64,000 nucleotides of DNA from Cordylochernes scorpioides. Taxonomy: Eukaryota; Arthropoda; Arachnida; Pseudoscorpiones; Chernetidae. The notes under the pieces were generated by a model, which searched no databases, was not told the DNA's origin, and worked only from the letters and a program-made list of their open reading frames with translations. Below are positions 18,456 to 51,960 of the stretch, one piece after another. Both the position numbers and the translations under genes were made by a program. The stretch is taken from contig CP092863.1 in NCBI GenBank assembly GCA_030710605.1, forward strand, positions 136,529,456-136,593,455, written 5' to 3'. How positions within the stretch are numbered: position 1 is the stretch's first letter; each line of letters begins with the position of its first letter.

Positions 18456-18497
18456 TCCACGAACGCGTTTCGCGCTGTTGGCGCTCGTCAGCGTGGA
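18456..18497 (-). ncRNA. Hammerhead ribozyme, family F1 (copy 1)
   Basis: A 42-nt minus-strand motif. Stem I is UCCACG (18492-18497) with CGUGGA (18456-18461), 6 bp. The core is CUGACGA. Stem II is GCGC/GCGC with loop CAACA. Then come GAAA, a minimal stem III inside ACGCGU, and cleavage triplet GUU. All universally required core nucleotides are present. Confidence 0.85.
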
Positions 18498-18970
18498 GAA
18501 GGCTGTAACCACTGCGACCAAAAAATATTTTTGGTCCCAATGGCTTCCCGAGAAATCAGAAAATGGGTATTTAAGGCCAAATTTGCGTAAAGACGCTTAA
18601 CACATGAAAAACAATAGAAAAAATAAAAGATAAGTGGGTCAGGTGTTGATATTAAAAATAAAAAAGGCATCTCCTGACCACGAGCACATGTGCTTTTTAG
18701 TTGGCAGAGCGCCATCTAGTGGAGCAAAAATAAACTAAAAATCTCCACTAGATGGCGCTCTGCCATCTAAAAAGCACATGTGCTCGTGGTCAGGAGATGC
18801 CTTTTTTATTTTTAATATCAACACCTGACCCACTTATCTTTTATTTTTTCTATTGTTTTTTCATGTGTTAAGCGTCTTTACGCAAATTTGGCCTTAAATA
18901 CCCTTTTTCTGATTTCTCGGGAAGCCATTGGAACCAAAAATATTTTTTGGTCGCAGTGGTTACAGCCTTC

Positions 18971-19012
18971 TCCACGCTGACGAGCGCCAACAGCGCGAAA
19001 CGCGTTCGTGGA
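18971..19012 (+). ncRNA. Hammerhead ribozyme, family F1 (copy 2)
   Basis: Same 42-nt design on the plus strand: TCCACG at 18971-18976, CTGACGA, GCGC-CAACA-GCGC, GAAA, ACGCGT-type stem III with a GTT triplet, CGTGGA ending at 19012. It is identical to copy 1 in core and stems. Confidence 0.85.
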
Positions 19013-19375
19013 TGGCTTTTCTTGATAAATCAAGAAATTGGGTTGGCCAAATATCACGGAGCAAGCTAAATAAACGTTTAGTTTATTTTTGCTCCACTAG
19101 ATGGCGCTCTGCCATCTAAAAAGCACATGTGCTCGTGGTCAGGAGATGCCTTTTTTTATTTTTAATATATATATATGAAAAAACAATAGAAAAAATAAAA
19201 GATAAGTGGGTCAGGTGTTGATATTAAAAATAAAGAAGGCATCTCCTGACCACGAGCACATGTGCTTTTTAGATGGCAGAGCGCCATCTAGTGGAGCAAG
19301 AATAAACTAAACGTTTATTTAGCTTGCTCCGTGATATTTGGCCAACCCAATTTCTTGATAAATCAAGAAAAGCCA

Positions 19376-19417
19376 TCCACGAACGCGTTTCGCGCTGTTG
19401 GCGCTCGTCAGCGTGGA
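19376..19417 (-). ncRNA. Hammerhead ribozyme, family F1 (copy 3)
   Basis: Minus-strand copy with the same stems, loop and GUU triplet as copies 1 and 2, complete and unmutated. Confidence 0.85.
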
Positions 19418-19801
19418 GTAGGCTGTAACCACTGCGACCAAAAATATTTTTTTGGTCCCAATGGCTTCCCGAGAAATCAAGAAATGGGTATTTAAGGCCA
19501 AATTTGCGTAAAGAATATTTGAGTTGGCCAAATAACACGGAGCAAGCTAAATAAACGTTTAGTTTATTCTTGCTCCACTAGATGGCGCTCTGCCATCTAA
19601 AAAGCACATGTGCTCGTGGTCAGGAGATGCCTTCTTTATTTTTAATATCAACACCTGACCCACTCATCTTTTATTTTTTCTATTGTTTTTTCATGTGTTA
19701 AGCGTCTTTACGCAAATTTGGCCTTGAATACCCATTTCTTGATTTCTCGGGAAGCCATTGGGACCAAAAAAATATATTTAGTCGCAGTGGTTACAGCCTA
19801 C

Positions 19802-19843
19802 TCCACGCTGACGAGCGCCAACAGCGCGAAACGCGCTCGTGGA
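19802..19843 (+). ncRNA. Hammerhead, family F1, mutated at cleavage site
   Basis: As copies 1-3, but the cleavage triplet reads GCU instead of GUU. The U that pairs with the last A of GAAA is replaced by C, so this copy is predicted to be inactive or very slow. Confidence 0.7.
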
Positions 19844-20289
19844 TGGCTTTTCTTGATTTATCAAGAAATTGGGTTGGCCAAATATCACGGAGCAAGCTAA
19901 ACAAGCGTTTAGTTTATTCTTGCTCCACTAGATGGCGCTCTGCCATCTAAAAAGCACATGTGCTCGTGGTCAGGAGATGCCTTCTTTATTTTCAATATAT
20001 ATATATATATTTATTTTGAAAATAGAGCAATCCATAAATAAATCTTTAATTAAAAAGGCATATTGGTAAAAAATATGATATTTTGATCCAATATATGCCT
20101 TTTTAATTGAAAAAAAATACATATATATTTATTAAAATAAAGAAGGCATTTACTGACCACGAGCATAAAGATTTCCTTTCTAGATTTCCAGAGTTTCAAA
20201 AGAATAGTTTGGAATATAATGACGGGAGTGGTAAAATTTTACTCTTAAATACTTCCATCATTGACCATGTTCTTGTGGCTCATTAAACA

Positions 20290-20502
20290 CATTTAGACAG
20301 AACTTTATTCAAATTGTATAAAATTATTGAGACAGAGGAGTTACCCTCAAGTCCCAATGATGATCTCATTCCTTATTTAAAAAGGATTGATGACTTCACC
20401 ATTCTCCAGAAGTGTATTTTTCTTGAGAATAGAATGGTCATTCCAAAATGTCTACATGAAAAGGTACTTCAATTATTACATGAGAGCCATCTTTATTTTT
20501 AA
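20290..20502 (+). pseudogene. Gypsy-type integrase N-terminal fragment
   Basis: Encodes RIDDFTILQKCIFLENRMVI then PKCLHEKVLQLLHESH, which matches the H2C2 zinc-binding start of Gypsy-family integrases (the pattern NR-V-I-P-x-x-L-x-x-x-V-L-x-x-L-H-x-x-H). It breaks off exactly where an F1-type repeat tail resumes (AACCTGACCCACTTATCTT at about 20501). Only a fragment is present. Confidence 0.65.
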
Positions 20503-20935
20503 ACCTGACCCACTTATCTTTTTTTTTTCTATTATTATTTTTTTCATATAGATATGAAGCATTCTCTCCTCTCTCAAAAAAAAATTGCAAGTTCTTTAAT
20601 TTAATCATTTCAATTTTATTTCTTCTTTGAATGAGACGTCAGATTCTGACAGAAATTCTATCCCCACGAGAAAACGTCAGGAATGGCGGCGACAAGTTGA
20701 AAAAGTTTGAAAACTCGTCACCATTTTTTTTTTCATGACTTTCCTTTTCTTTCTGAGTGTTATAGAACTCACCAACCTTCAAACTTAAAAATTCTGGAAT
20801 CTTCATTCTGGAATTCTTCAAAATCCATTAAAACCATATATTTGTGGCTTATCTATCCCATATAGCGTAAAGGTGGACATAGAAAATGAGCTACAACATC
20901 AGTTTTGGAAAATTCAGACAAAAGCCATGGTTTCG

Positions 20936-21250
20936 GTTTTTTTTTTTTTTTTGCTTATCCCAAGTACACGTGGTACATGCCATGATAATCATGGTGGGTA
21001 GTTAGCGACTGCTTTTACTCTAAGTGCACAACATGTCTACACATGTGAAAAGCAGTTCGAATTTGCACTTACAAATGTGCCAGAGCCCCGTTTTGTTACT
21101 TTCAATCCCTGGTGGGGTTGGACTCTCGCAAGAATCGGAGGCCTTTGGAGCATTTTATTCAATCAGAACAAAAGTGCCCAATGCGGGAAATCGAACCCGG
21201 GTCGTAGCGGTCGAAAACCAACGGTTTTGACCATCCTTCCACCGACCCCC
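20936..21250 (-). mobile_element. tRNA-derived SINE
   Basis: Same family as 5661-5968: poly(A) seen as T's at about 20938-20952, GCTTATCCCAAGTACACG at the tail end. The B-box region shows a small insertion relative to other copies (GGGAAATCGAACCCGGG). Confidence 0.85.
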
Positions 21251-21496
21251 GGTTTCGGGTTATAGCCTTCATCAGTAGCGAAACAGCTTCGATTTCATAT
21301 CATCTTTCAAGTACCTTGATGGGAATTAGAGGAATACCGTCTAATGGTCATTATAAATATATTGCTAGTATAAATCTGTGATATATATATAATATTATTT
21401 CAGACCATTGACTGCGGAATTGTTTTATTTAGAGCCATGAAATAACTTTCCTTCTTCGTATATAAAAGTTTTTGTCTAAAGTATAATTGTATAAAA

Positions 21497-22835
21497 TAAA
21501 CACACACAGCTTTATTAAGACCACCGGTCTTAAACAGATTCACTATAGAAAGAAAGCATAGATGAAGCTCCTATACTACAGGCAGCACAGAACCCAACAA
21601 TATTTGATACACACATACACCTTTATTAAGACCACCAGTCTTATATAGATTCACCACAGGAAGGAAGCATAGATAGAGCTCCTATACTCCAGGCAGCACA
21701 GAACACAACAATATTTGATACACACACAGCTTTATTAAGACCACCAGTCTTATATAGATTCACCACAGGAAGGAAGCATAGATGGAACTCCTATACTCCA
21801 GGTAGCATAAAACCCAACAATATTTGATACACACATACAGCTTTATTAAGACCACCAGTCTTATATAGATTCACCATAGAAAGAAAGGAAGCATAGATGG
21901 AGCTCCTATACTCCAGGTAGCATAAAACCCAACAATATTTGATACACACATACAGCTTTATTAAGACCACCAGTCTTATATAGATTCACCATAGAAAGAA
22001 AGGAAGCATAGATGGAGCTCCTATACTCCAGGCAGCACAGAACCCAACAATAATTGATACACACATACAGCTTTATTAAGACCACCAATCTTATACAGAT
22101 TCACCACAGGAAGGAAGCATAGATGGAGCTCCTATACTCCAGGCAGCACAGAACACAACAATATTTGATACACACATACAGCTTTATTAAGACCACCAGT
22201 CTTATACAGATTCACCATAGAAAGAAAGGAAGCATAGATGGAGCTCCTATACTCCAGGCAGCACAGATCCCAACAATATTTGATACACACATACAGCTTT
22301 ATTAAGACCACCAGTCTTATATAGATTCACCATAAAAAGAAAGGAAGCATAGATGGAGCTCCTATACTCCAGGCAGCACAGAACCCAACAATAATTGATA
22401 CACACACAGCTTTATTAAGACCACCAGTCTTAAACAGATTCACCACAGGAAGGAAGCATAGATAGAGCTCCTATACTCCAGGCAGCACAGAACACAACAA
22501 TATTTGATACACACACACAGCTTTATTAAGACCACCAGTCTTAAACAGATTCACCATAGAAAGAAAGCATAGATGGAGCTCCTATACTCCAGGCAGCACA
22601 GAACCCAACAATATTTGATACACACATACAGCTTTATTAAGACCACCGGTCTTAAACAGATTCACTATAGAAAGAAAGCATAGATGGAGCTCCTATACTC
22701 CAGGCAGCACAGAACCCAACAATATTTGATACACACATACAGCTTTATTAAGACCACCAGTCTTATATAGATTCACCACAGGAAGAAAGCATAGATAGAG
22801 CTCCTATACTCCAGGCAGCACAGAACCCAACAACA
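21497..22835. repeat. About 112-bp satellite, 12 units
   Basis: CTTTATTAAGACCACCAGTC recurs about every 107-116 bp from about 21510 to 22745. Each unit has a short hairpin (TAAGACCACCAGTCTTA) and ends with CCAGGCAGCACAGAACCCAA. Length differences come from a GAAAGAAAGGAAG or CAGGAAGGAAG block. It lies in the intron before SLC35F exon 3. Confidence 0.92.
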
Positions 22836-23085
22836 GACTCCAGGTCCGACACATGTCCAGTGGCCACACCGTACATACGTCAAGGTTAGCGTTTCACTGA
22901 AAAGGCGAATGTGGTTCAGCCGCGTTCTAATCTTCACTTTCATCATCCAAATGGACCACGACATTCGGCGATTCTATTAATCTCTCCGAACGATGACTGT
23001 ATAAAAAACTATGTTTTTTAAGAAATAACTTCTAATCATTTTGACAGATATCTATGAGTTTCTAAGGCTAACACGGTGTGTTCAG

Positions 23086-23214
23086 ATCGTGGCTGTAATC
23101 ATGTGTAACACGGGAACTGCCCTCCTGGCTTACATGGATGGTGCATACCGCTCGACTACACTGGGTGGTGTGGTGCTAGCGTCCGCAGCGGCTGCTGGAG
23201 CGGCCATACACAAG
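23086..23214 (+). CDS. SLC35F3/4-like: SLC35F3/F4-like transporter, exon 3 in window
   Basis: The 3' splice site is GTGTGTTCAG at 23076-23085, in phase 0. An upstream AG at 23046-23047 would put a stop in frame. The donor is GTACAG at 23215. The exon encodes IVAVIMCNTGTALLAYMDGA then the LGGVVLASAAAAGAAIHK span. 'GVR' from exon 2 joined to 'IVA.IM' reproduces the family pattern around two membrane spans. Confidence 0.86.
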
Positions 23215-23327
23215 GTACAGTACCTCCCACTTACACCACACATGTTTTATACTCTATTTTCCTTTTCTCGTGAACCCTTCAAGTGACGTACGGCTAAATT
23301 TTCTCGCTACTTAACCTTAATTTGACT

Positions 23328-24189: not shown

Positions 24190-24329
24190 TTTACATAATT
24201 AAGGGTATGAGAAGATAGTTATTTTAACCTAAATCTAATATCAACCTAACCCAATTCCAATACTTTATTGTAGTGGATTATATGCAATTTATAAAAATTT
24301 ACTTCATTTGTGAAGAGAAAGAGCTTGAA

Positions 24330-25159: not shown

Positions 25160-25470
25160 CCTTTTCGAACAGATTCAGACAATAACTCTGAAAGATATTA
25201 CAGTGACATTTATTGAAGACACACGAGAAAACCAAGTGTGAACAAAACATAGGTAAGTTGTACCTTTCAGAATGTATATCGGGATTCAGACAATAACTCT
25301 GAAAGTTATTACAGTGACATTTATTGAAGACACACGAGAAAGCCAAGTGTACACAAAACTTAAGGAAGTTGTACCTTTTAGTATGTATATCGGGATTCAG
25401 ACAATAACTCTGAAATATATTACAGTGACCTTTATTCAAGACACTCGAGATAACCAAGTGTGAACAAAAC
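25160..25470 (-). repeat. 111-bp MITE units, minus orientation
   Basis: About three units of the 111-bp family (GAAAGATATTACAGTGAC, AAGACACACGAGA), flanked by the GACATCAAAGACATTCC segment to 25520. Confidence 0.8.
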
Positions 25471-25657
25471 TACACTTGTCATCTTCAAAAAAGACCACTA
25501 GCGACATCAAAGACATTCCACATCCTTACGTTTTGTCTATGAATGTATTTTTTCATATTTGTCACCAAAAAAGGGCGACTTGCTGGACATTAACAACCAC
25601 ATTTTGTCGATAGATTAGTTGAAGAGAGGATAGGATAATATGGCTGTGTGTTGATAG

Positions 25658-27396: not shown

Positions 27397-27790
27397 TTCA
27401 GAAAAAGGACATTTCCTAACCATGCAACTAAAATTTACTGATGGCTTGCGTCATCTATCGGAATAAATGCCAACTAATCTTTGATTTTTATTATTCCATA
27501 ATTGGCCAAATACCGTTTTTTGATTAATCAAGAAAAGCTAACCACGTACGCGTTTCGGGCTGTCGGCCCTCGTCAGCGTGGTGCAAGCTGTGGTACGTGG
27601 TTAGCTCTTTCTTGATTAATCAAGAAACGGTATTTGGCCAATTCTGGAATAATTAAAAATCAACAATTAGTTGATAATTATTCCGATAGATGACGCAAGC
27701 CATCAGCAAATTTTATTTGCACGATCAGGAAATGTCCTTTTTCTCAATTTATCCACCTGATCTAAGTATAAATTCACATTTGTACTATTT
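27397..27790. repeat. F2 ribozyme foldback repeat (copy A)
   Basis: Palindromic element: GGACATTTCCTAACCATGCA ... at one end and CACGATCAGGAAATGTCC at the other, inner arms with GGCCAAATACCGTTT and TGATTAATCAAGAAA, and a hammerhead at the centre. It ends about 70 bp before SLC35F exon 5. Confidence 0.88.
27541..27582 (-). ncRNA. Hammerhead ribozyme, family F2 (copy A)
   Basis: Minus strand: stem I ACCACG/CGUGGU, core CUGACGA, stem II GGGC/GCCC with loop CGACA, GAAA, minimal stem III in ACGCGU and cleavage triplet GUA. Relative to F1, stem II changed from GCGC/GCGC to GGGC/GCCC and the outer pair of stem I from U-A to A-U, in each case with pairing kept. Confidence 0.85.
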
Positions 27791-27860
27791 TTCACAATGA
27801 TAGGTGTGTTGATTGGTTCAAATGTCAGGATGTGTCCACAGCTGTCTGTTGCTTGTGCAG

Positions 27861-31000: not shown

Positions 31001-32070
31001 ATATATCAAAAATAGAGGATAAATATTTATTTTTAAATATTAGAATATATAGCACATAAATATATATAGTTGAAGATATATATTTGTCTATATAGCTATT
31101 TGTTTAGTCTATCTAGAAATAAAGTATCATGCATAAAAGGTTTTTAGAATGTTTTTTTGGAAAGCACCTGAATTATTTATTAATTTCGTAGAGATTTTTC
31201 AAAGTAGACTTTTATTTCAAGAAATTTGAAATGTATTTTTATATAAAAAATCATTATATATAATTATACGAAAGAGTCATTAATTTAGAGATGTTTTATA
31301 ATATAAATTATATGGTGTTTTTGTCTTCTTTTTTGAATCTCACTTTTAATATACACAATTTAATTTTTTTTTTGTTACATTTGAGATAAAAATGTTTTTG
31401 AGACTACAAAAAGGTTACATAATTTTTAACATATATTTCCTTTTTAATTAGTATAAATATAATTGATATCAAACTACAGTTATAACCAAAAGATTATTTA
31501 TTTACAATACATATATACTTAAATTTTGAGAAAATGAGTTTTTAAATGTATTTAACATATTAACATTTCATTTTTTATTAATATAAATATAATTGATAGA
31601 GAAATAGTTTTAAGAAAAATATATTATTTATATGTAAAATATTTTCTAATTAAAACTTGATTAAAAAGTTTGATTCCTTATAATGATGTATGTATATAAA
31701 ATTATTATATTAAAATTCACAACTATTTTTTATTAATAATCTTGCGGAAACAAATGTAAATGAATACCACCAAATTTATTATGTAAATATCTCATTTTTT
31801 GTGAGAGCTTTTAAATTAGAATTTTTTCTTAGCTCTCGCTCACTGCTAAAATAAACTTAATTTTAGTATAATATGTGTCTCTCCATCTTTTTGTTTGGCA
31901 TCAAAAATATTTCATAAACAAAGTATCTTTAAAAATAGGTTATTCTTATGTTAAACATAGCGTAAACAGTATTAATGAATTACTTACGTGAAAATACAAA
32001 AATGCATTGTTTTTGTTTTTCTAATATATTTTGTGTTCTCCGGTATCAATATAATATATTAAAATATTAA
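28085..32070. other. 3' flank and AT-rich intergenic DNA (copy A)
   Basis: Probably the SLC35F 3' untranslated region at first. A likely polyadenylation context is not certain. From about 28600 it is very AT-rich with no open frame that is kept in copy B. A 237-bp frame open in copy B (38129-38365) is broken here by a TAG, so I do not call it. Confidence 0.5.
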
Positions 32071-32074
32071 AAAT

Positions 32075-32410
32075 AAAAGAGGCATATCCTGACCAGGAGC
32101 ACATGTGCTTTTCAGAAGACAGAGCGCCATCTGGTGTAACAGAAATCAACTAAACATTGATTTAGACTGTTCCCTGATATTTGGCCAACCCAATTTCTTG
32201 ATAAATCAAGAAAAGCCATACACGAACGCGTTTCGCGCTGTTGGCGCAAGTCAGCGTGGAGTAGGCTGTAACACTGCGACCAAAAAGATTTTTGGTCCCA
32301 GTGGCTTCTTGAGACACCAAGAAATTCCACCAGATGGCGCTCTACCTTCTGAAAGGCACATGTGCTCCTGGTCAGGATATGCCTCTTCTATTTTTAATAT
32401 CACACCTGAC
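32075..32410. repeat. F1-type repeat with inactive hammerhead (copy A)
   Basis: An F1 relative (AGAGGCATATCCTGACCAGG ... CTGGTCAGGATATGCC). The minus-strand hammerhead at 32219-32260 reads CUGACUU in place of CUGACGA, and stem I is partly lost, so it should not cleave. Confidence 0.75.
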
Positions 32411-32635
32411 CTTTTAATTTTTTTTCTATTGTTTTTTCACATATTAAAATATAATTTATTTAATATATTATATATGACTTTTTAATAATTTTCCTCTTTC
32501 TCCAAAGATTTCATATTTTTTTATTATATATTTTATCTCTCTGCTTACTTTTTTTCATTGATATTTTTAGGGTGAGAAATTAAAAATATATAGAATATTT
32601 TAATTAAACATATTAACATCTTTAAAACATAATAT

Positions 32636-34397: not shown

Positions 34398-34710
34398 CCT
34401 TTTCGAACAGATTCAGACAATAACTCTGAAAGATATTACAGTGACATTTATTGAAGACACACGAGAAAACCAAGTGTGAACAAAACATAGGTAAGTTGTA
34501 CCTTTTAGAATGTATATCGGGATTCAGACAATAACTCTGAAAGTTATTACAGTGACATTTATTGAAGACACACGAGAAAGCCAAGTGTACACAAAACTTA
34601 AGGAAGTTGTACCTTTTAGTATGTATATCGGGATTCAGACAATAACTCTGAAATATATTACAGTGACCTTTATTCAAGACACTCGAGATAACCAAGTGTG
34701 AACAAAACTA
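34398..34710 (-). repeat. 111-bp MITE units (copy B)
   Basis: Counterpart of 25160-25470, nearly identical. Confidence 0.8.
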
Positions 34711-37184: not shown

Positions 37185-37580
37185 GGTGTTCAGAAAAAGG
37201 ACATTTCCTAACCATGCAACTAAAAGTTGCTGATGGCTTGCGTCATCTATCGGAATAAATACCAACTAATCTTTGATTTTAATTATTCCAGAATTGGCCA
37301 AATACCGTTTTTTGATTAATCAAGAAAAGCTAACCACGTACGCGTTTCGGGCTGTTGGCCCTCGTCAGCGTGGTGCAAGCTGTGGTACGTGGTTAGCTCT
37401 TTCTTGATTAATCAAGAAACGGTATTTGGCCAATTCTGGAATAATTAAAAATCAACAATTAGTTGATAATTATTCCGATAGATGACGCAAGCCATCAGCA
37501 ATTTTATTTGCACGATCAGGAAATGTCCTTTTTCTCAATTTATCCACCTGATCTAAGTACAAATTCACATTTGTACTATT
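37185..37580. repeat. F2 ribozyme foldback repeat (copy B)
   Basis: Counterpart of 27397-27790, with the same arms and central hammerhead. Confidence 0.88.
37333..37374 (-). ncRNA. Hammerhead ribozyme, family F2 (copy B)
   Basis: As 27541-27582 but with stem II loop CAACA instead of CGACA. All core positions, stems and the GUA triplet are intact. Confidence 0.85.
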
Positions 37581-37653
37581 TTTCACAATGATAGGTGTGT
37601 TGTGATGGGTTCAAATGTCAGGATGTGTCCACAGCTGTCTGTTGCTTGTGCAG

Positions 37654-41950: not shown

Positions 41951-42955
41951 CAGTGTCGGGCAACTTTTTTCGAGTTGCGGCGCACTAAGCTTAATTTCTT
42001 TTTTTTTCGCGGCGCACCTGTGGTTCTCACTATAAATTTCCTCGTAGGTAATTAAAATACAACAATAAATACTAGTAAAAATTTAAACATATATATCACA
42101 TTTTATTAATTTTCAATATTAAATTAACATAATCAATGCGAGCATTGCGATTGTTTTTGAGAGCATATCAAATCAATACGGGGATCTACTTGTGAAAGAC
42201 AAACGCGCATCTCCTCATCTATCATTTGAAGTCTTTCGCGCTTCTTAGACTTCATTTCTGTGAGTGTTGAAAAACCTTGCTCACACAGGTAGGAACTTCC
42301 AAATGGCAACAATGATTCGATGGCCGCATTACTAAGTTTAGGAAATTTGGAGTTTAAGCACAACCAAAACTCAGATAGCTCCTTTTCAGTGAATAGTCTT
42401 TTGAAAACTAAATCGTTTTTAAAATAATTTTTTTTTTTGTTTTCTTTTTTTTTAAGCTTTGTAGCTTTGAGTCTCTATTAATAAACAGCTGTGACAAAGA
42501 TTGTAAATGACGGTTAAGTTTGGACATATTATTTTAAAAATTAGGTATTTTCCCGCAGTATGTATTCAACTTTATTAAATAAAGTTGTTTTCGCGGATTG
42601 TTTTTTTTTAACTTATGATTTTAAATAGGTACGTACCTATTTGCATTTTTATTTTTTAATAATGGCACGTGCCAGTTATGTACGTCAAGATTATGTACAT
42701 ACGTTATATGAAATATAAAATTATGCAAACTGTTGTAATTATAATACCAAAATAAGTTTTATATAAAATGAAATTTGCTTTTTTTTAAGTTCATTTTTTA
42801 TATGAAAATTTTTGAAAAAAAATATTAAAATTGAATAAAAATTATAAAAAATATTTTTTGAAACATTATTTTTAAATTTAACCAAAAGTTCTAAATACCT
42901 ACAAAAATGTTCGCGGCACACCAGTGTGCCACGGCACACCGGTTGCCCGACACTG
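41951..42955 (-). mobile_element. hAT element, nonautonomous, 8-bp TSD
   Basis: A 1005-bp insertion absent from copy A. Terminal inverted repeats are CAGTGTCGGGCAAC and GTTGCCCGACACTG. The 8-bp target duplication ATTTAGAC lies at 41943-41950 and 42956-42963, as expected for hAT. It carries only the end of a transposase gene, so it would need a transposase from elsewhere. Confidence 0.93.
42133..42363 (-). pseudogene. hAT transposase C-terminal remnant
   Basis: Encodes 76 residues with AIESLLPFGSSYLCEQGFST and SKKRERLQMIDEEMRVCLS, typical of the C-terminal dimerisation region of hAT transposases of the ZBED5/SCAND3-like group (pattern YLCEQGFSTL..IKSK.R). The catalytic DDE part and BED zinc finger are missing. 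Confidence 0.8.
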
Positions 42956-43446
42956 ATTTAGACTGTTCCCTGATATTTGGCCAACCCAATTTCTTGATAA
43001 ATCAAGAAAAGCCATACACGAACGCGTTTCGCGCTGTTGGCGCAAGTCAGCGTGGAGTAGGCTGTAACACTGCGACCAAAAAGATTTTTGGTCCCAGTGG
43101 CTTCTTGAGACACCAAGAAATTCCACCAGATGGCGCTCTACCTTCTGAAAAGCACATGTGCTCCTGGTCAGGATATGCCTCTTCTATTTTTAATATCACA
43201 CCTGACCTTTTAATTTTTTTTCTATTGTTTTTTCACATATTAAAATATAATTTATTTAATATATTATATATGACTTTTTAATAATTTTCCTCTTTCTCCA
43301 AAGATTTCATATTTTTTTATTATATATTTTATCTCTCTGCTTACTTTTTTTCATTGATATTTTTAGGGTGAGAAATTAAAAATATATAGAATATTTTAAT
43401 TAAACATATTAACATCTTTAAAACATATCACCACTAATGGTCCAAG

Positions 43447-43668: not shown

Positions 43669-43673
43669 AATTT

Positions 43674-46600
43674 CTACATTCCCAATCCAGCAACATGTTT
43701 ATCATACAAGACTCTTGGCAGACCTTTAGTAAGGATGTCGGCAACATTTTCCTGGGTTGGTGTGTGAACGACCTCGATAAGACCATCGCTGCAAATGCTT
43801 CTAATATAATGCCATTTGATGTCAATGTGTTTAGTTCTGGCATGATGGACTGGATTTCTTGCCAGCTGTTGAGCGCCCTGGTTATCAGTCTTTAAAACCG
43901 TAGGTTCATTCAATAATTCACCAAATCCCATCTCATCCAACAGCGCTCTAAGATAGACTGCCTCCTTTCCCGCTTCACAAAGTGCTATGTACTCTGATTC
44001 CGTGCTCGAAAGAGCGACAGTCTGCTGCTTCTTCGATTCCCAAGCTATTGGACCTCCTGCTAAGAAGAAAACAAGTCCCGTTTGAGATTTTCTATCCGCG
44101 AGGTTTCCACCCCAATCAGCGTCGACACAACCATAAAGGGTCTCATTAGTTTTCTCGTAAGTTATTTTCAAACATAAAGTGCCCCTTAGATAGCGGAGGA
44201 CACGCTTGGCCGCATTCCAGTGCTGTCTCCTAGGATCATTGCTGAATTGTCCCAAAGCACTAACCGCATAGGCTATATCAGGCCTTGTCGACACTGAAAG
44301 ATATATTAACGATCCAATCAGTGATTGGTATTCTTCCTTTTTTACTGGCTCATTCTCACCCTCTATAGATGAAATCTTTGTTAACTTGGAGTTCGAGTCC
44401 ATGGGTGTAGAAATCGGCTTGGCCTCCTTCATTCTATATTTCGCCAGAAGTTCTTCAATATATTTCTCTTGATCTATGGATATTGAGCCATCCTTTTTCG
44501 TTTGTATTCTTATACCCAAACAATAATTTATCTTTCCAAGATCTTTTATTTTGAATATCTTCTTCATACTTTCTTTAAAGGATATCAACGTGTCTTCTCT
44601 TTCAGCTGCAATTATCAAATCATCAACATAGATTGCGACCAGAAGAACTCCTTCTTCTCTTTTAATGTAGACACAGTTATCAGTTTTCATCTGTTCTAGG
44701 CCCATTTCTTTTAATACTGAATCGAGCTTTGCATGCCAAGTCATTCCAGCCTGTTTCAGACCATATATAGCCTTCTTTAGTTTACATACCCTTCTTGGAT
44801 ATTTCTTTGACTCGAAATTTTCTGGTTGTGTCATGTAAATTTCTTCTTTGACATTACCATTCAAGAAGGCAGACTGAACATCCATTTGATGGACCAGCAA
44901 ATCATATTCAACGGCCAAGGCTAAAACTGTTCTGATCGTACTGTGGCGTACAACTGGTGCAAAGGTTTCCTCATAATCAATACCGTATTTTTGGGAATAA
45001 CCTTTTGCTACAAGTCGAGCCTTATACCGTTCAAGAGAACCATCACTACTATACTTTCTCCTGAATACCCATTTGCTTCCAATTACGTTTTGGCCCTTAG
45101 GGGGATCAACCAGTTCCCAAGTTTTGTTTTCAATCAATGAATCAAACTCCTCCTTCATTGCTTTCCTCCAAAAATAAGAATCTTTTCCAGACAGCGCTTC
45201 CTCTGCGTCTTTTGGATCTGGGGAGTACTTCACTTCTGAAAATTCTTGCGTGGATAAATTTGCCGTAGGATATTCCTTTCTTGGTCGGCCAGGTTTTCCC
45301 GTTCTAATATACCTTGGTCTTCCTCTTCCTCTCTGCGAGATGACTTCCATTGTTTCTGATGGTTCGCCTAAAAACTCCGAATCAGTTCCGGGCAAAGTGT
45401 TTTCATCATCCTGAAGACTTTCCTCCTCCAATGATGTATTTTCCTTTTTCTGTGGTATAGCTTCAATTTGCACCACGTCATTCCTTAAGGTAGAGTTTTC
45501 AGATTCGAGGAAACGTACATCTCGACTTTTTATCATCATGCCTGTTCCAGGCTTCCATAATCTGTACGCCTTTGATTCGGGAGAATAGCCAACCAGTCGG
45601 TATTCTTCACTACGAGGAGCGAATTTTCCTCTTCTTGGACGGTTGTCAACAGCGAAACATTTACATCCAATAATTCTTAAATGAGAAACGGTTGGTTTTC
45701 TTCCTGTAAATATTTCATACGGAGTTCGACTTTCATTTGTTCTTGGGCATCTGTTTCTGATGTATGTAGATGTATGCACAAGTTCAGCCCAAAGTGGATC
45801 TGGGAGGTTCGCTTGAATTATGAAACATCTGGTCATTTCTACCAGAGTTCTGTTCGCTCTTTCAGCAACTCCATTTTGCTGCGGAGAATATTCAACTGAG
45901 AGCTGATGTATAATTCCTTCCTCCAATAAATATTCTTTAAAATCTGAACTCAAATACTCTGCGGCATTGTCACTTCTGATTGCTTTAATTTTCTTGCCAG
46001 TTTGTTTCTCAGCAAATCTTTTAAATACTTTAAATCCTTTGAAAATTTCACTTTTTCGTTTCATAACAAAAGTGAATATCATTCGTGAGAAATCGTCAAT
46101 GAAAGTTGCGAAGTACAATGCACCGCCATATGACTTTGTTCTCATCGGTCCACATATGTCAGAATGAATAAGTTGCAGTGGCTCTGTTGACTTTGTCAGA
46201 GAGACTTCTGGGAATGGTAATCGAGTCTGTTTACCCCTAATACAAGTTTCACAAATTGTTATACTTTTAAATTCACCCTTGGGTAATCCATTAACTAAAT
46301 TTTCTCTCTGCAATTTCCTAAGGTCATCAAAATTAAGATGACCAAACCTATTATGCCAAATTTCACTGCTATTTTTGTCTATACACATTCTGGTAAATTG
46401 CGTTTTTGCATATTTAGTTTGACGCAATATGTAAAGTCCGTTTCTTTTGTAAGCTTCTATGCAAATTTTCCTCAATGGATTCACAATTTCCGCTTTTCCT
46501 CTCATAAATTTTACGAAAAATGATTTTTCTGTGCAGGTGCTGACCGAAATCAAATTTCCCTTCAGTCCTGGGACAAACAACACATTTTTTAATTTTAATA

Positions 46601-47567
46601 AAAATGGTTCACCATGTTCGAAAACTTCCAATTCTACCGTTCCTGTACCTAAAGCTTCTATGCTTTGGTCGTTCGCTAATTTAACGGCTATTGGCTCTGT
46701 TTCTCTTAAATCTGAAAATGCTGTTCTTAAGCAGCACATGTGTGCAGTTGCACCGCTATCCAGGCACCACTCGTCAACATCAAGAATATTTTCATCTCGA
46801 ATTCCTAGAGAAGCAGCCATTCGCGTATTGTTTCTTTTAGAGTTCCTTTTTGACCAGCAGTCAGCCGCTTTGTGGCCTTTCTTGCCACAGTAATGGCAGT
46901 TAAATTTAAAATCCTTCCGATTTGGTGGTTTAGTGGAATTGGTAGTTTTTCTTTCTGGATTTCCAAAAAAGGCATTTTGTTCTCCAGACGAAGTTCTCTC
47001 CATTTCACGTTGTCTTTGATCTTCTTCTATGATCTTGACCTTTAAAGTTTCAAGTTTTGGGAGCTCATCTCTGGTTTCTATTGCAGTCCTGAATCCTTCA
47101 TACGATTCTGGAAGACTACACAACAAGAGTATAACTAAAAAGTCATCGGGTACTTGAGCCCCAATTTCACCTAGATTGTCCACTAATGAAGTAAATTTAC
47201 TCAGGTAATCTTTCAAATCATCATTAGGCCTCATTTTCATCTGTATTAGCCTTTTGGTCAGGGAAACTCTCGTCGCAGGTCCTTTAGGTCGATAAACTTC
47301 TTCTATCTTTTTCCAGGCCTCCTCGGCAGTCTTGCAATTCTTAACATGTATTAGTTCTGGTGGATTCAAGCTCAATACAATTGTAGCAAGAGCCTTCTGA
47401 TCCTTATTTTGCCAATTAGTAAACTCTTGGTTACCGGGTTCAGGTTTGACATTGGCTTCATTAACATAAATCCACAGATCAGAGTGAACAAGAATCATTT
47501 GCATTTGAAGCCTCCATGTCTCAAAGTTTTGCTTATTCAACTTCTCAATTTGATATAGACTGGACAT
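43674..47567 (-). CDS. gag-pol: Copia Gag-Pol polyprotein
   Basis: 1297 residues in one frame with no stop or frameshift. In order: Gag (about 1-220, starting SSLYQIEKLNKQNFETW); CCHC zinc knuckle CHYCGKKGHKAADC (about 224-237); aspartic protease with WCLDSGATAHMC (about 267-278); pre-integrase WHNRFGHLNFDDL; integrase core (HSDICGPM, FIDDFSRM, RSDNAAEYLS, with D-D-E residues visible); reverse transcriptase (SKWVFRRKY, VHQMDVQSAFLNG, YVDDLIIA catalytic box at about 990); RNase H (DADWGGN, SSTESEYIAL, DNQGA, HIDIKWHY) to the C-terminus ENVADILTKGL. Length is near that of Drosophila copia. Gag and Pol are in one frame, so there is no frameshift site to look for. The start is the first Met, about 46 bp inside the right LTR. 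Confidence 0.96.
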   Translation of the reverse strand: MSSLYQIEKLNKQNFETWRLQMQMILVHSDLWIYVNEANVKPEPGNQEFTNWQNKDQKALATIVLSLNPPELIHVKNCKTAEEAWKKIEEVYRPKGPATRVSLTKRLIQMKMRPNDDLKDYLSKFTSLVDNLGEIGAQVPDDFLVILLLCSLPESYEGFRTAIETRDELPKLETLKVKIIEEDQRQREMERTSSGEQNAFFGNPERKTTNSTKPPNRKDFKFNCHYCGKKGHKAADCWSKRNSKRNNTRMAASLGIRDENILDVDEWCLDSGATAHMCCLRTAFSDLRETEPIAVKLANDQSIEALGTGTVELEVFEHGEPFLLKLKNVLFVPGLKGNLISVSTCTEKSFFVKFMRGKAEIVNPLRKICIEAYKRNGLYILRQTKYAKTQFTRMCIDKNSSEIWHNRFGHLNFDDLRKLQRENLVNGLPKGEFKSITICETCIRGKQTRLPFPEVSLTKSTEPLQLIHSDICGPMRTKSYGGALYFATFIDDFSRMIFTFVMKRKSEIFKGFKVFKRFAEKQTGKKIKAIRSDNAAEYLSSDFKEYLLEEGIIHQLSVEYSPQQNGVAERANRTLVEMTRCFIIQANLPDPLWAELVHTSTYIRNRCPRTNESRTPYEIFTGRKPTVSHLRIIGCKCFAVDNRPRRGKFAPRSEEYRLVGYSPESKAYRLWKPGTGMMIKSRDVRFLESENSTLRNDVVQIEAIPQKKENTSLEEESLQDDENTLPGTDSEFLGEPSETMEVISQRGRGRPRYIRTGKPGRPRKEYPTANLSTQEFSEVKYSPDPKDAEEALSGKDSYFWRKAMKEEFDSLIENKTWELVDPPKGQNVIGSKWVFRRKYSSDGSLERYKARLVAKGYSQKYGIDYEETFAPVVRHSTIRTVLALAVEYDLLVHQMDVQSAFLNGNVKEEIYMTQPENFESKKYPRRVCKLKKAIYGLKQAGMTWHAKLDSVLKEMGLEQMKTDNCVYIKREEGVLLVAIYVDDLIIAAEREDTLISFKESMKKIFKIKDLGKINYCLGIRIQTKKDGSISIDQEKYIEELLAKYRMKEAKPISTPMDSNSKLTKISSIEGENEPVKKEEYQSLIGSLIYLSVSTRPDIAYAVSALGQFSNDPRRQHWNAAKRVLRYLRGTLCLKITYEKTNETLYGCVDADWGGNLADRKSQTGLVFFLAGGPIAWESKKQQTVALSSTESEYIALCEAGKEAVYLRALLDEMGFGELLNEPTVLKTDNQGAQQLARNPVHHARTKHIDIKWHYIRSICSDGLIEVVHTPTQENVADILTKGLPRVLYDKHVAGLGM

Positions 47568-47599
47568 GCTTGATTCTTAATTTTCTTAGACAATCAGTT

Positions 47600-47613
47600 C
47601 TGGGCCCATAACC
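47600..47613 (-). other. Copia primer-binding site (initiator tRNA half)
   Basis: The plus strand reads CTGGGCCCATAACC directly next to the LTR. This equals the anticodon arm of eukaryotic initiator tRNA-Met. Priming from an internal part of a cleaved initiator tRNA is the established mechanism of Drosophila copia. Confidence 0.9.
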
Positions 47614-47821
47614 TGTTGAAAAAATAGGAAGGAGAATGCCGGGAAATTGTCTTTAAAGATAGAAAGTTTTATTAAGTTATGCTCTAATTTTACATAAAGT
47701 TAAAGCAGCTTGCTTTACATACTCCATTACGACAATGATAGAAATAAATTATATACATGGCGGTCAACTGGTCAAAAACAAATAAAAGAAGAGTAGAATG
47801 TTGAAATTGATTATTCCAACA
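47614..47821 (-). repeat. Copia LTR (5' LTR of element)
   Basis: 208 bp, apparently identical to 43452-43659, followed by target duplication CCCTC at 47822-47826 and then the resumed F6 fragment (CCAATATATTTTTCATCG). Confidence 0.95.
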
Positions 47822-47879
47822 CCCTCCCAATATATTTTTCATCGCAGTAAGGACAGTAGAAGTTTGTCTTTTATTATTA

Positions 47880-48179
47880 TTATTATCACTAGTACACGTG
47901 GTACAGGCCATGATAATCATGGTACGTAGTTAGCGACTACTTTTACTGTAAGTGCACCACATGTCTACACATGTGAAAAGTAGTTCGACTTTGCACTTGC
48001 AAATGCGCCAGAGCCCCGTTTGATTACTTGCACTCCCTGATGGAGTTGGATTTTTGCGAGCTTCAGGGGCCATTGGAGCATTTTTTTTAATTAGAAAAAA
48101 AAAGTGTCCAATGTGAGATTTGATCCCGGGTTGTAGTGGTCGAAAACCAATGGTTTAGACCACCCTTCCACCGACCCCC
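47880..48179 (-). mobile_element. tRNA-derived SINE (copy B)
   Basis: Counterpart of 32700-33005. It retains the GTAGTGGTCGAAAACC segment missing in copy A. Confidence 0.82.
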
Positions 48180-48464
48180 TATAATATCCTAATTGTATTC
48201 AGTTGATACAGTATCACTGAAGTGTCCCTCACGTCTATAAATACAAAGACAAGAAAGATAACGGATGAGTGTGGGATGTCAGAAAGAAGTTTATTCTCTG
48301 ACGAGGGGGAGAATTTTGCTCCAAGGACGTATGAGCGCCTGGGCTTTCCTTGATCCCCATTGGTGACAATTTTGGCGCCTCGACCTCCATGGCTAGGACA
48401 TGTTCCCTGCAACATGACACACCTTTAGGACACTTGTGGATTGTCACACGTGTATATACACTCA

Positions 48465-48935
48465 TTGACACAAAACTAGGAGATTGTACCTTTTAGAATG
48501 TACATCAGGATTCAGACAATAACTCTGATATTACAGTGACCTTTATTGGAGACATACGAGATAACCAAGTGTGAACAAAACTTAAAGAAGTTGTACCTTT
48601 TAGCATGTATATCGGGATTCAGACAATAACTCGGAAAGATATTACAGTGATTTATTCAAGATACACGAGATAACCAATATACACTCATGGACAAAACTTA
48701 AGGAAGTTGTACCTTTTAGAATGTACATCGGGATTCAGACAATAACTCTGAAATATATTACAGTGACCTTTATTGAAGACACACGAGATAACCATTATAC
48801 ACTCATGGACAAAACTTAAGGAAGTTGTACCTTTTAGCATGTATATCGCGATTCAGACAATAACTCTGAAAGATATTTGATACACACTTACCTTTTTTTG
48901 AATACACACGAGATAACCAAGTGTGAACAAAATTG
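48465..48935 (-). repeat. Degraded 111-bp MITE units
   Basis: Several minus-oriented fragments, three of them beginning ACACTCATGGACAAAACTTA or close variants, spaced 80-130 bp apart. Begins just after copy B ends. Confidence 0.7.
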
Positions 48936-48956
48936 TCTCTGTCGTCTTAAAAAAAA

Positions 48957-49075
48957 CCAGCCCCGTTTGATTACTTGCACTCGCTGGTGGGGTTGGACTT
49001 CTACAAGAATCGGGGGCCATTGGAGCATTTTTTTTTAAATAGAAAAAAAGTTGCAAAATAATCAAAGACTTAACT
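48957..49075 (-). mobile_element. SINE body fragment
   Basis: The internal part (CACTCGCTGGTGGGGTTGG, AATCGGGGGCCATTGGAGC) of the tRNA-derived SINE, lacking both ends. Confidence 0.75.
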
Positions 49076-49151
49076 TCCTTAAGTTTTGTCCATGGTGTAT
49101 ATTTGATTTTAAAGAATTCAAAATAGATACAAGATAATAAGACCTAATCCT

Positions 49152-49195
49152 GTGTGTGACATTTCGGTAACAGCGTTGTTACCATCATCATACAA
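49152..49195 (-). ncRNA. Hammerhead-like motif, family F5 (left)
   Basis: Minus strand: stem II GGUAAC/GUUACC with loop AACGCU, then GAAA and a GUC-like cleavage site before ACACAC. The first core is AUGAUGA instead of CUGAUGA and stem I is only about three pairs. Probably inactive. Confidence 0.45.
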
Positions 49196-49229
49196 AAGAA
49201 TAAACGAAATAAAACATAATACAATATAA

Positions 49230-49580
49230 TGCGGCTTATGATTGTAAAACGGCATTCGAAAATTATCCCGCATGTGTTTCTTTTTAACGAAAAATCGAGA
49301 TTTGTTTTAAGGAGAAATAACGATTTTTTCTAACCTTAGGGATGAAGTATGAAAGGATGAATTGTGAAGAGTAATGATAAACGAAAAAGCGGTAAGCGGA
49401 ACACTGTGGGTTCGTTTCCCATCCCTGGACACTTTTATTTTTTCGTTTATCATTACTCTCCACAATTCATCTTTTCATACTTCATCCCTGAGGTTAGAAA
49501 TAATCGTTATTTCTTCTCAAAAATAAATTTATATTTTTCGTTCATAAGAAACACATGCGGGATAAATTTCAAATGTCGAA
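49230..49580. repeat. Palindromic MITE-like element
   Basis: Relative of 9646-9871 (ACGAAAAATCGAGATTTG arm and complement). Its centre holds CACTTTTATTTTTTCG and a GGGATGAAGTATGAAAGG stem. It lies between two F5 motifs in opposite orientations. Confidence 0.75.
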
Positions 49581-49599
49581 ATAAAACATAAATTAATTC

Positions 49600-49640
49600 T
49601 TTGATGATGATAACAACGCTGTTACCGAAACGTCACACAC
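49600..49640 (+). ncRNA. Hammerhead-like motif, family F5 (right)
   Basis: TTGATGATGATAACAACGCT, then GTTACC, GAAA and palindromic ACGT with a GTC triplet. The first core nucleotide and one stem II pair are changed. It mirrors the motif at 49152-49195, so the pair brackets 49200-49600. Confidence 0.45.
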
Positions 49641-49727
49641 TATTAATTTATTCGATTTAGGTCGTATTTTCTTGTAGCTATAATCTATAATTCAAATTGT
49701 GTGCTTTATCAATTCTAAATACATTTT

Positions 49728-50005
49728 TTTTTGTTTATCCCTAGTACACGTGGTACAGACCATGATAATCATGGTGGGTAGAAGTTGGCGACTGCTTTTA
49801 CTGTAAGTACACCACTTGTCTACACATGTGAAAAGCAGTTCGACTTTACAATTACAAATATTCCAGAGCCCCGTTTGATTACTTGCACTCGCTGGTGGGG
49901 TTGGACTTCTACAAGAATCGGGGGCCATTGGAGCATTTTTTTTTTTTTTTATAGAAAAAAAGTTGCAAATGTGGGAATCAAACCCAGGTCGTAGCGGACC
50001 AAAAC
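49728..50005 (-). mobile_element. tRNA-derived SINE, head truncated
   Basis: Tail GTTTATCCCTAGTACACG at the left. The head stops shortly after the B box (GGGAATCAAACCCAGGTCG). Confidence 0.8.
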
Positions 50006-50629
50006 CTAGTTTATGATGTTTGTAACAATGAATAATATATGAAGGTTATTCACATATTAAACAAAATCTTAACGCGGGATTCAATTCCGGTTCATGACTG
50101 TCGGTAATTGTGGGTGTTACCCACTCGTTCATAATCCAAATCCAAGTTCCAAATCACTTTATTAGGTACCGCTCAAAAAGAGCAACCTAGATCATCATAT
50201 TTACAATATACTGTGAGGGATGGTTATGTACAGGGTTTTTTCATTTACAATTACAATTTATAATGATGTCGTTGGGCCCTTGGGGATATTGTTCTTGAGA
50301 AGGTTTTGTCTGGCTTGTTTGATATTCAAGGTGGGTTTATTTTATTTATTTTTTTTTTCACTTTTCGTCATTCTGACTTAATTGATGGAGAATTTGTCTA
50401 GGTTTTAAATTTCTTATTTTCCTTTTCCGCATTTGTAGTTTGTGGCTTTCTTGAAGGTGGGGTTTTCTAATTTTTCGGATTTTTCGTAGAATTTAAACGA
50501 TTGTCTAATAATGTAGATAATCCAAATTGTGTTTTATCAATTCTAAATACAATATTATAGAATGATATGTAATATAAAGAACAAAACCAACAGTCTGACA
50601 AAGAGATAGAGTATAGGTACGGTAAATAC

Positions 50630-50773
50630 CTAGATAGGTGTACTCCGCCCCGTTGGGTAGTCCCCTCAGTACAGTAGCACTCACAGCACTGCGGTTCAGA
50701 TTCATACTGGAAAGTTGGGTCCAGGTGTTGGTTGCGTGGCTGTAACTCTCCACCAGGGGCACTGTAGTCGTTC
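50630..50773 (-). CDS. KLHL10: Kelch protein (KLHL10-like), downstream exon
   Basis: Minus strand. The 3' splice site is GTGTACAG before GAACGACTAC; the two bases GA complete the Gly codon left by 62744-62876. It encodes GTTTVPLVESYSHATNTWTQ then LSSMNLNRSAVSATVLRGLP and NGAEYTYLG. This is a kelch blade (V-E-x-Y...N-x-W) followed by the 'MNLNRSA-S-A' and 'GLPN' pattern of the KLHL10 C-terminus. The 3' end is uncertain. I chose a possible donor at CTAG|GTATTT (50630); without it the frame runs to a stop at 50505-50507 through sequence that looks like a repeat. KLHL10 acts as a Cullin-3 adaptor in male germ cells in animals studied. Confidence 0.72.
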
Positions 50774-50852
50774 CTGTACACCCACACACCTCACTTACCT
50801 TCTACAAAACCTCTCTACTTTATATTTATTTCAATTTAAAGTGCTAATGAGA

Positions 50853-50985
50853 AAAAAAGGGACATTTCCTGATCGTGCAACTAAAAGTTGCTGATGGCTT
50901 GCGCCATCTATCCGAATAAATATCAACTAATCGTTGATTTTTTTATTATTATTCCAGAATTGGCCAATGCCGTTTCTTGATTATT
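50853..50985. repeat. F2 foldback repeat, truncated arm
   Basis: GGGACATTTCCTGATCGTGC to GGCCAATGCCGTTTCTTGA, then cut off by the next repeat. The hammerhead itself is missing. Confidence 0.75.
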
Positions 50986-50989
50986 CATT

Positions 50990-51400
50990 ACTAGCCGAAT
51001 GACCCGGGCAACGCCCGTGTTTTACCCGATTGAATGTTTTGATTCAAATACTATTTGTTACAATTATAATTTGGCGCCTTAAATAAATGCATATGTTAGT
51101 TAATAACTATAGCCTATGTGCTTTATCTGTCTATGTACTGTTGGCTTCCGTAGGCGTCTCTTACTGGGAAAAAGAAAAAGAGGATTCCATTTGGTTATTA
51201 ACTAATATATGCATTTATTTAAGGAGCGACCCGCTCCAACACAATAGTTACAGAAATGGGGGGGGGGGGCAAAGGTGGCGTGATCGTAGCCAACCAATAG
51301 GAGGGCGCCATTCCAAAAAAAAAAAAAGCAAACCGTGACAGAGGCCGATGAGGAATGACGCTCGTAAATGTATATAGAATATTCCGCGTCTTCGGTGCTG
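50990..51400 (+). mobile_element. Unclassified repeat with GGGCAACGCCCGTG
   Basis: Shared with 63473-63900 (TAGCCGAATGACC, TTTGGCGCCTTAAATAAATG, CTTCCGTAGGCGTCTC). Contains an inverted pair ATGCATATGTTAGTTAATAA/TTATTAACTAATATATGCAT. Resembles nonautonomous LINE-like 3' ends, class not settled. Confidence 0.6.
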
Positions 51401-51568
51401 GCCTCTCTCTGAGGTAACATCTAACCTGATTCGTCCTTTATGTTATCCCATTCACGCCTGAAACTACTGTTATTAAAAGCTATTTATACAGCTCTTATAC
51501 TGCTAGCGTTGAAATTAGTTATAATTTTCATCAGTAGAGGGCACTAAATTGACAATATTTAATTGCGG

Positions 51569-51960
51569 AAAAAGGGCCATTTCCTGATCGTGCACCTAAA
51601 AGTTGCTGATGGCTTGCGCCATCTATCGGAATAAATATAAACTAATCGTTGATTTTTTAATTATTACAGAATTGGCCAAATGCCGTTTCTTGATTATTCA
51701 ATAAAAGATAACCACGTACGCGTTTCGGGCGTGTTGGCCCTCGTCAGCGTGGTGCAAGCTGTACCTCAATGACCCAAAAAAGGTGGTCTTTGGGGACATC
51801 TTGGTATCAACGATTAGTTGATATTTATTCCAATAGATGGCGCAAGCCATCAGCAACTTCTAGTTACACGATCAGGGAATGCCTTTTTTCTCAATTTATC
51901 CACCTGATCCAAGTACAAATTCACTTTTGTGCTGTTTTTTCACATTAAAGTGCTATGTCC
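51569..51960. repeat. F2 ribozyme foldback repeat
   Basis: Arms GGGCCATTTCCTGATCGTGC and CACGATCAGGGAATGCC, with a central minus-strand hammerhead and a GGTGGTCTTTGGGGACATCT segment. Confidence 0.88.
51711..51753 (-). ncRNA. Hammerhead ribozyme, family F2
   Basis: 43 nt: stem I ACCACG/CGUGGU, CUGACGA, stem II GGGC/GCCC with a 6-nt loop CAACAC, GAAA and cleavage triplet GUA. Differs from the other F2 copies by one inserted loop nucleotide only. Confidence 0.83.

Follow-up and report, generated by a model that had tools for sequence, protein, structure and literature searches.

Six short segments in a 64,000-nt stretch of the genome of the pseudoscorpion Cordylochernes scorpioides (contig CP092863.1; the whole stretch is called the window here) were listed in an earlier note as complete hammerhead ribozymes of two families, F1 and F2, lying in palindromic repeats. 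The question raised by this locus is whether the motifs are genuine ribozymes and what kind of element carries and copies them. The analysis points to minimal type I hammerheads that are quite probably carried by short (338 to 352 nt), protein-less retroelements copied in trans by Penelope-like machinery.

Hammerhead motifs in the window

An anatomical script run over the two strands of the window demanded the core, at least 4 bp in stem I and 3 bp in stem II, pairing in stem III, and U-H at the point of cleavage. Only the six named sites passed, at exactly the coordinates given previously (Table 1). All were minimal type I hammerheads, with the core CUGANGA ... GAA, a cleavable NUH correctly placed, and a palindromic stem III, ACGCGU. 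The perfect 6-bp stem I and perfect 4-bp stem II claimed for them were found at each site, as were the cleavage triplets GUU in F1 and GUA in F2, and the compensated differences between the two families were borne out (U-A to A-U in stem I and C-G to G-C in stem II). The CAACA-type loop II held at four sites, the exceptions being CGACA at 27541 and CAACAC at 51711. A looser pattern, CTGACGAN{4,20}GAAA, matched the window nine times against 0.39 expected from shuffles; the matches were the six named sites, decayed relatives at 19808 and 55642, and an unrelated place at 15031. In all, six decayed hammerhead relatives were additionally present in the window.

The six sites are not mutually independent, because 27541 and 37333 share a segmental duplication and the three F1 sites are parts of two head-to-head elements lying side by side. 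The sites at 27541 and 37333 are copies of one site, the duplication being 97.9% identical over 520 bp.

Covariation, stem I architecture, and a fourth family

In 43 distinct 42-mers, 91.5% of cells were paired, and the covariation score was 0.230; shuffles gave 0.110, none of the 500 reaching the observed value, and slid versions did not exceed 0.065. The measure of pairs changed on both sides was weaker, with 5 compared with 3.4 in shuffles, of which 66 of 500 did as well. A second, distal stem I helix, unnoticed in the earlier note, was also found to covary. It sits behind a 3x1 internal loop, stem I consisting of 6 bp, this small loop, and 4 bp, and it occurs as AGCC/GGCU, AGCU/AGCU, AGUC/GACU, and AGAC/GUCU. 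When it was included, 53 distinct 54-mers scored 0.244 versus 0.126 shuffled (0 of 500) and no more than 0.057 slid; on its own, the distal helix had 79.7% of cells paired, below the other helices. Covariation thus backs helices I and II of the type I fold. With G-U pairs allowed, all six stem I pairs were formed in 60 of 78 motifs drawn from the window and loci L001 to L075, all four stem II pairs in 62, and both sets in 52; the sample is local, as the loci all lie within the first 7.3 Mb of contig 1.

A fourth family, F4, follows the same overall plan, with stem I CCUAGA/UCUAGG, stem III ACCAUGGU, and, by eye, an apparent distal helix GUCC/GGAC. Apart from the core and a short box, its units have little in common with those of F1 and F3, and it was absent from the window matches of the looser pattern. 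Both stem III versions are palindromic, a feature compatible with dimeric action. In computed dimer energies, the double hammerhead came within 0.5 kcal/mol of the optimum in F2 and F3 and lay 2.6 kcal/mol above it in F1; the computed fold of the 54-nt F1 motif makes stems I and II.

Abundance in the genome

The assembly to which the window belongs (2.62 Gb, 24 contigs) was searched with the core pattern CTGANGAN{8,24}GAAACGCGTH, which does not require the stems. It matched 44,057 times (21,909 + 22,148), compared with 10 matches for the reversed-pattern control, and a 34-nt piece of the F2/F3 unit had 20,404 exact occurrences (control, 0). A stricter hammerhead pattern gave no match in viral contigs and two in prokaryote contigs (L164 and L165); as neither element flanks nor stem II could be seen by eye, these were taken as chance matches rather than relatives. 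The pattern counts against controls, together with the covariation, rule out a chance origin of the motifs, and the six sites are genuine ribozyme motifs of a known kind, predicted to be self-cutting.

A small non-coding repeat unit

Each motif sits in a unit that occurs in tandem, permuted, and head-to-head copies, with one hammerhead per non-coding tandem unit, a size within the ∼170 to 400 nt of retrozymes. Tandem arrays had periods of 338 (F3) and of 350 and 352 (F1 subtypes); their near-100% identity to the unit is partly by construction, because the locus compared also supplied the unit. Up to 5.65 units were found per arm, and single-arm copies exist. Computed folding of units gave −118.9 and −119.5 kcal/mol (z −7.9 and −7.7), and 12 of the 66 predicted pairs had kept double changes across 18 units. 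The F3 fold includes hammerhead stems I and II. It also contains the helix CCUGACC/GGUCAGG, a local hairpin in tandem or circular RNA that brackets the 3′ end site A described below.

A box, AGATGGCG, follows the cut at a near-constant distance (+93/94 in F1, +94 in F3, and +86/87 in F4) in families that are otherwise dissimilar, and the F2 copy at 37333 has the version AGATGACG at +91. The window contains 25 copies of the box, 8 of them outside arms. The F1 form, CCACTAGATGGCGC, presumably agrees with the CTCF consensus; no paper joining Penelope, hammerhead ribozyme, and CTCF was found in the literature searched.

Two 3′ end sites and their pairing in head-to-head copies

With unit position 1 placed directly after the ribozyme cut, the 3′ ends of 185 arms comprised 94 at site A (∼147 to 161), 61 at site B (∼198 to 209), and 30 others. 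The commonest positions were 161 and 207 in F1 and 157 and 203 in F3, an A-B spacing of ∼46 nt. Head-to-head pairs were counted in L001 to L130 and the window. The count excludes four overlapping or duplicate loci, namely, L009, L018, L036 (A+A), and L051 (B+A), the second member of each duplicate in the window's segmental duplication, and 6 pairs truncated at the edge of a locus. Three pairs whose inner distances are long, at 54912311, 57754535, and 63821019 of contig 1, were left out, which gives a slight bias to short arms. Of the 71 pairs uncut by a locus end, 61 were classified, as 56 A+B, 4 A+A, and 1 B+B. Once two pairs repeating another's junction (L002 and L121) had been dropped, A+B accounted for 54 of 59 distinct classified pairs, where 29.4 were expected (P = 8e-12).

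Among arms of at least 92% identity, the flanks were 81% AT at A (83 arms) and 85% at B (50 arms), compared with 65% for the window, and strongly alternating AT flanks were found at 14 of 83 A ends and 19 of 50 B ends (background, 0.5%), the flanks being in part (AT)n. Neighbors within 1.2 kb in an F3 subfamily were head-to-head in 24 cases, tail-to-tail in 1, and tandem in 26; these counts refer to the first 100 of 3,900 exact places, in 49 clusters, with one duplicated cluster counted twice. The copies therefore show features of Penelope-type insertion, namely, head-to-head or partial-tandem arrangement, a tail on one arm, and AT-rich targets at these A and B ends.

Arms of the same locus averaged 94.3% identity, versus 90.9% between loci, in the 53 of 79 pairs with at least 60 aligned nt (both copies of the window's duplication included). 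The own partner was the best of all arms in 11 of the 53 and within the top tenth in 27. At the F1 loci L031, L033, L035, and L038, partner arms were 99.7 to 100% identical, beating every other arm. The earlier suggestion that the hammerheads are of the Penelope or retroelement kind is supported by the Penelope-type tail ends, the head-to-head copies, and the covariation, F4 included. Its companion suggestion, that the palindromic repeats are non-autonomous partners, likewise gained support, the palindromes being head-to-head insertions with such ends.

5′ ends at the ribozyme cut

For F2/F3-type copies, 14 of 127 distinct arms stopped within 4 nt of the cut, where the local rate predicts 5.0 (P = 6.6e-4), and the 9-nt interval centered on the cut was the strongest of all those scanned. 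Another 8 arms, truncated at the edge of a locus, and 7 repeats were excluded. The arms, from the first 13.4 Mb of contig 1 and from part of the F3 subfamily list, were picked through a fragment of the unit's 3′ part, a sampling largely blind to the ribozyme. This peak is suggestive of a footprint of ribozyme cutting; a stop caused by RNA structure is a possible alternative. The palindrome at 27397-27799 was considered as one that ends exactly at the cut, but its plus arm starts ∼3 nt upstream, with filler or microhomology, and it is only suggestive.

Candidate Penelope-like machinery and contrary observations

A 272-residue piece from L033 matched only four proteins, all from C. scorpioides, the first two carrying GIY-YIG and the fourth a reverse transcriptase (RT) domain. 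Judging by this domain pair, the pieces in L033 and L040 look like a Penelope-like reverse transcriptase and endonuclease. No open reading frame (ORF) with RT and GIY-YIG was recognized among the eight ORFs scanned in the window or inside the units.

Several observations weigh against functional hammerheads in elements copied by Penelope-like machinery. The RT-like piece, ∼130 bp from the array in L033, had a Pfam score of 23.4 (cut-off, 29.6), and the GIY-YIG-like piece in L040 had one of 21.8 (cut-off, 22.6). A complete Penelope-like element sharing the ends or the ribozyme was not found, the analysis including no genome-wide GIY-YIG search. The earlier note had proposed that its claim would fall if no covariance model matched above threshold, and formally this is what happened: the Rfam scan of the window gave zero matches at the gathering score and zero accepted hammerheads at E up to 10. 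Below threshold, Hammerhead_HH9 matched four clustered F1 copies at 22.4 to 28 bits (cut-off, 52) and no F2 copy. Because Rfam fails here, stem III being only ACGCGU, the motifs were judged by anatomy, genome count, and covariation. In computed folds, the 42-nt F1 motif alone did not take the hammerhead as its minimum-energy form, and the F1″ unit had stem I with stem II absent. Exceptions to the pairing rule were also found: 5 of 59 distinct classified pairs were A+A or B+B, and in 10 of the 69 distinct uncut pairs an end lay at neither A nor B. In 8 of 53 pairs, the own-partner likeness was below the between-locus mean. Most sampled copies start elsewhere than at the cut, and among F1 arms without an intact core, 0 of 32 stopped within 6 nt of it, although this sample is small and biased, its loci having been chosen by the ribozyme. 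Finally, according to PMC11167929, the ribozyme of the anole Penelope-like element is dispensable for insertion in vitro.

Alternative readings

The last points bear on a reading in which Penelope-like machinery copies unprocessed linear tandem transcripts and the hammerhead is kept as a fold or binding site, its cleavage being irrelevant to transposition. Many copies do run through the cut site, F1 has no 5′ peak there, and according to PMC11167929, mutation of the anole core leaves insertion in vitro normal and RNA-seq ends do not map to the cut. Against it stand the strongest F2/F3-type 5′-end peak, centered on the cut, and the conservation of core and cleavable triplet across families with differing stems, though the pattern by which loci were picked demands both. 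We regard this reading as a real but somewhat doubtful possibility.

It is unlikely that the head-to-head copies arose by self-priming on antisense RNA instead of by starts on both target strands. Self-priming was proposed for the same arrangement in rotifer Penelope elements (PMC3846280), but both outer ends here adjoin AT-rich DNA and stop at two different preferred sites, and self-priming gives no evident reason for A+B pairing. The anole enzyme, moreover, cuts and extends both strands (PMC11167929).

Foldback or miniature inverted-repeat transposable element (MITE)-type DNA transposons that carry a hammerhead by chance would account for long inverted repeats and AT-rich targets. They were rejected because foldback termini should be symmetric and the ends found here are asymmetric (A versus B): paired arms mostly end at differing sites and have differing 5′ ends. 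Arms also differ in length, permuted copies and multi-unit arms occur, and single-arm copies exist, which makes this origin very improbable. An ordinary satellite with a chance hammerhead-like sequence would explain the tandem arrays with periods of 338 to 352 bp, but is hardly credible given the 44,057 core patterns versus 10 in the control, the compensatory changes, the recurrence of the fold in a second sequence family, and the dispersed copies.

A proposed copying mechanism

If the elements are non-autonomous partners of Penelope-like machinery, a tandem or circular RNA would be cut by dimeric hammerheads, and the enzyme would cleave both strands of AT-rich DNA. Reverse transcription would begin inside the RNA, at A on one target strand and at B on the other, and synthesis of complementary DNA (cDNA) would proceed upstream, often past the ribozyme and sometimes for more than one unit. 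Joining of the two cDNA 5′ ends would produce palindromes, and synthesis would sometimes halt at the ribozyme cut.

We tentatively propose, as one possibility, that a ∼340-nt structured, probably circular RNA is read simultaneously by two Penelope-type RTs, from A and B on opposite strands; rolling-circle copying would yield the tandem units and joined 5′ ends the palindromes, with the hammerhead making the template. If true, reading of a circular template by two RTs would connect retrozymes directly with Penelope-like elements, legible in tens of thousands of genomic copies. The A+B pairing offers a concrete, testable model of how insertion proceeds on the two DNA strands, and from the 5′ ends comes a genomic test of ribozyme cutting in the animal.

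Comparison with known systems

Hammerheads in Penelope-like elements were reportedly described by Cervera and de la Pena in 2014 and by Lunse et al. in 2017. No paper combining pseudoscorpion and hammerhead was found in the literature searched, and for hammerhead ribozyme and spider there was nothing on arachnid ribozymes among the matches listed.

In rotifer Penelope elements, inverted pseudo-long terminal repeats occur, a 31-bp tail is optional on one inverted copy, and head-to-head is the most frequent arrangement (PMC3846280). The anole Penelope-like enzyme prefers AT-rich DNA and starts inside the RNA at an AC-rich stem loop, at two adjacent sites, the sequence between them being the tail (PMC11167929); the A/B anatomy found here is in close agreement with this. 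The elements described here resemble Penelope-like elements (PMC7761336, PMC11167929, and PMC3846280) in the minimal hammerhead, in tandem or partial-tandem and inverted head-to-head copies, in the tail on one inverted copy, in AT-rich targets, and in a predicted RT start inside the RNA near a stem-loop. They are unlike them in that the units have no visible coding region, the whole element being one ribozyme unit, and the tail is ∼46 nt compared with the 31 and 30 to 40 reported. Moreover, A and B are complementary here (54 of 59), whereas in PMC11167929 the top and bottom strands do not appear to differ in start site.

With metazoan non-LTR (long terminal repeat) retrozymes (PMC7229834), the elements share non-coding tandem units of ∼170 to 400 nt, low GC, one type I hammerhead, and strong self-pairing. 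Circles of metazoan retrozymes were demonstrated (PMC7229834), whereas the present elements are known from DNA sequence alone; the term “inverted” was not found in the available portion of that paper. Most invertebrate retrozymes have hammerheads with a stable stem III, minimal ones being assigned to Penelope-like elements and Terminons, but amphibian retrozymes likewise are without a clear stem III and need dimers (PMC7761336). The hammerhead found here has a stem III of only ACGCGU, as in minimal forms, yet an internal loop in stem I. It is also like the dimeric hammerheads of newt satellite and viroid (PMC6155905), whose weak stem III is longer in the dimer; ACGCGU would give 6 bp between copies. 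Those hammerheads sit in different repeats, and dimer action here is predicted only.

By these features, the element is a combination of retrozyme traits (a small non-coding tandem unit) and Penelope-like traits (minimal hammerhead, tail, and head-to-head copies). The component parts are already known; the complementary A/B pairing was not found described in the available portions of PMC3846280 and PMC11167929.

Table 1. Hammerhead copies and element arms of the window, with F4 hammerheads of sampled loci
Feature	Position	Strand	Remarks
F1 hammerhead, intact	18456-18497	-	GUU; anatomical scan
F1 hammerhead, intact	18971-19012	+	GUU; anatomical scan
F1 hammerhead, intact	19376-19417	-	GUU; anatomical scan
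F1 hammerhead	19802-19843	+	Triplet broken (GCU); decayed copy
F2 hammerhead, intact	27541-27582	-	GUA; anatomical scan
F1-type hammerhead	32219-32260	-	Core broken (CUGACUU); decayed copy
F2 hammerhead, intact	37333-37374	-	Segmental-duplication copy of 27541 site; anatomical scan
F1-type hammerhead	43015-43056	-	Core broken (CUGACUU); letters identical to 32219-32260; decayed copy
F2 hammerhead, intact	51711-51753	-	GUA; loop II of 6 nt; anatomical scan
F2/F3-type hammerhead	53647-53688	+	GUG triplet, stem I broken; inactivity expected; decayed copy
F2-type hammerhead	55607-55648	-	Stem II broken; decayed copy
F2-type hammerhead	55862-55903	+	Core and stem I broken; decayed copy
F4 hammerheads	L071 2015- and 2239+; L049 1510- and 1617+		Both head-to-head
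F4 hammerheads	L027 946-; L031 192-; L042 1052+; L074 2461-		
F2/F3-type arm without ribozyme	10520-10613	-	3′ end site A
F2/F3-type arm without ribozyme	10622-10748	+	3′ end site B
Arm, 1.39 units	18260-18739	-	3′ end site B
Arm, 1.22 units	18743-19168	+	3′ end site A; head-to-head with 18260-18739
Arm, 0.97 units	19175-19514	-	3′ end site B
Arm, 1.37 units	19519-19998	+	3′ end site A; head-to-head with 19175-19514
F2 arm	27397-27591	-	3′ end site A
F2 arm	27593-27799	+	3′ end site B; 5′ end ∼3 nt from ribozyme cut
F1-type arm	32063-32325	-	3′ end site A
F1-type arm	32326-32447	+	3′ end class B (position 214)
Duplicate of arm 27397-27591	37189-37383	-	
Duplicate of arm 27593-27799	37385-37590	+	
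Partial duplicate of arm 32063-32325	42951-43121	-	3′ part cut off (position 70)
Duplicate of arm 32326-32447	43122-43243	+	
F2 arm	51568-51780	-	3′ end site A
F2 arm	51806-51946	+	3′ end site B
F2 arm	55413-55706	-	3′ end site B
F2 arm, 1.01 units	55712-56055	+	3′ end site A

Other features of the window

The segmental duplication, which has insertions, covers ∼25.2 to 33 kb and 34.4 to 43.3 kb of the window. Inside it lies a repeated exon-like ORF (25658 and 34896) with no Pfam match, which we take to resemble an SLC35-type transporter; the ORF at 9827-10195 has a weak EamA match. A 32-bp tandem repeat of ∼70 copies (2951-5189) was the source of repeated sub-threshold mir-33 matches, and the sub-threshold microRNA families in the Rfam output are probably chance matches to this repeat and to the palindromes. 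A ∼111-bp minisatellite occurs on both strands in at least five places (1-204, 7910-8915, 25172-25471, 34410-34709, and 48454-48877).

Among other mobile sequences, a Copia-type retrotransposon polyprotein frame, open over 1300 codons, was recognized by eye at 43674-47576 (minus strand). The window also has a hAT dimerization piece at 42136-42474 (minus), a short weak RT piece at 52648-52989 (minus), and a jockey-like RT at 59413-60468 (plus) that is 60% identical to a Cordylochernes protein. A near-perfect inverted repeat at 10254-10396, with arms of ∼30 bp, is perhaps a small DNA transposon.

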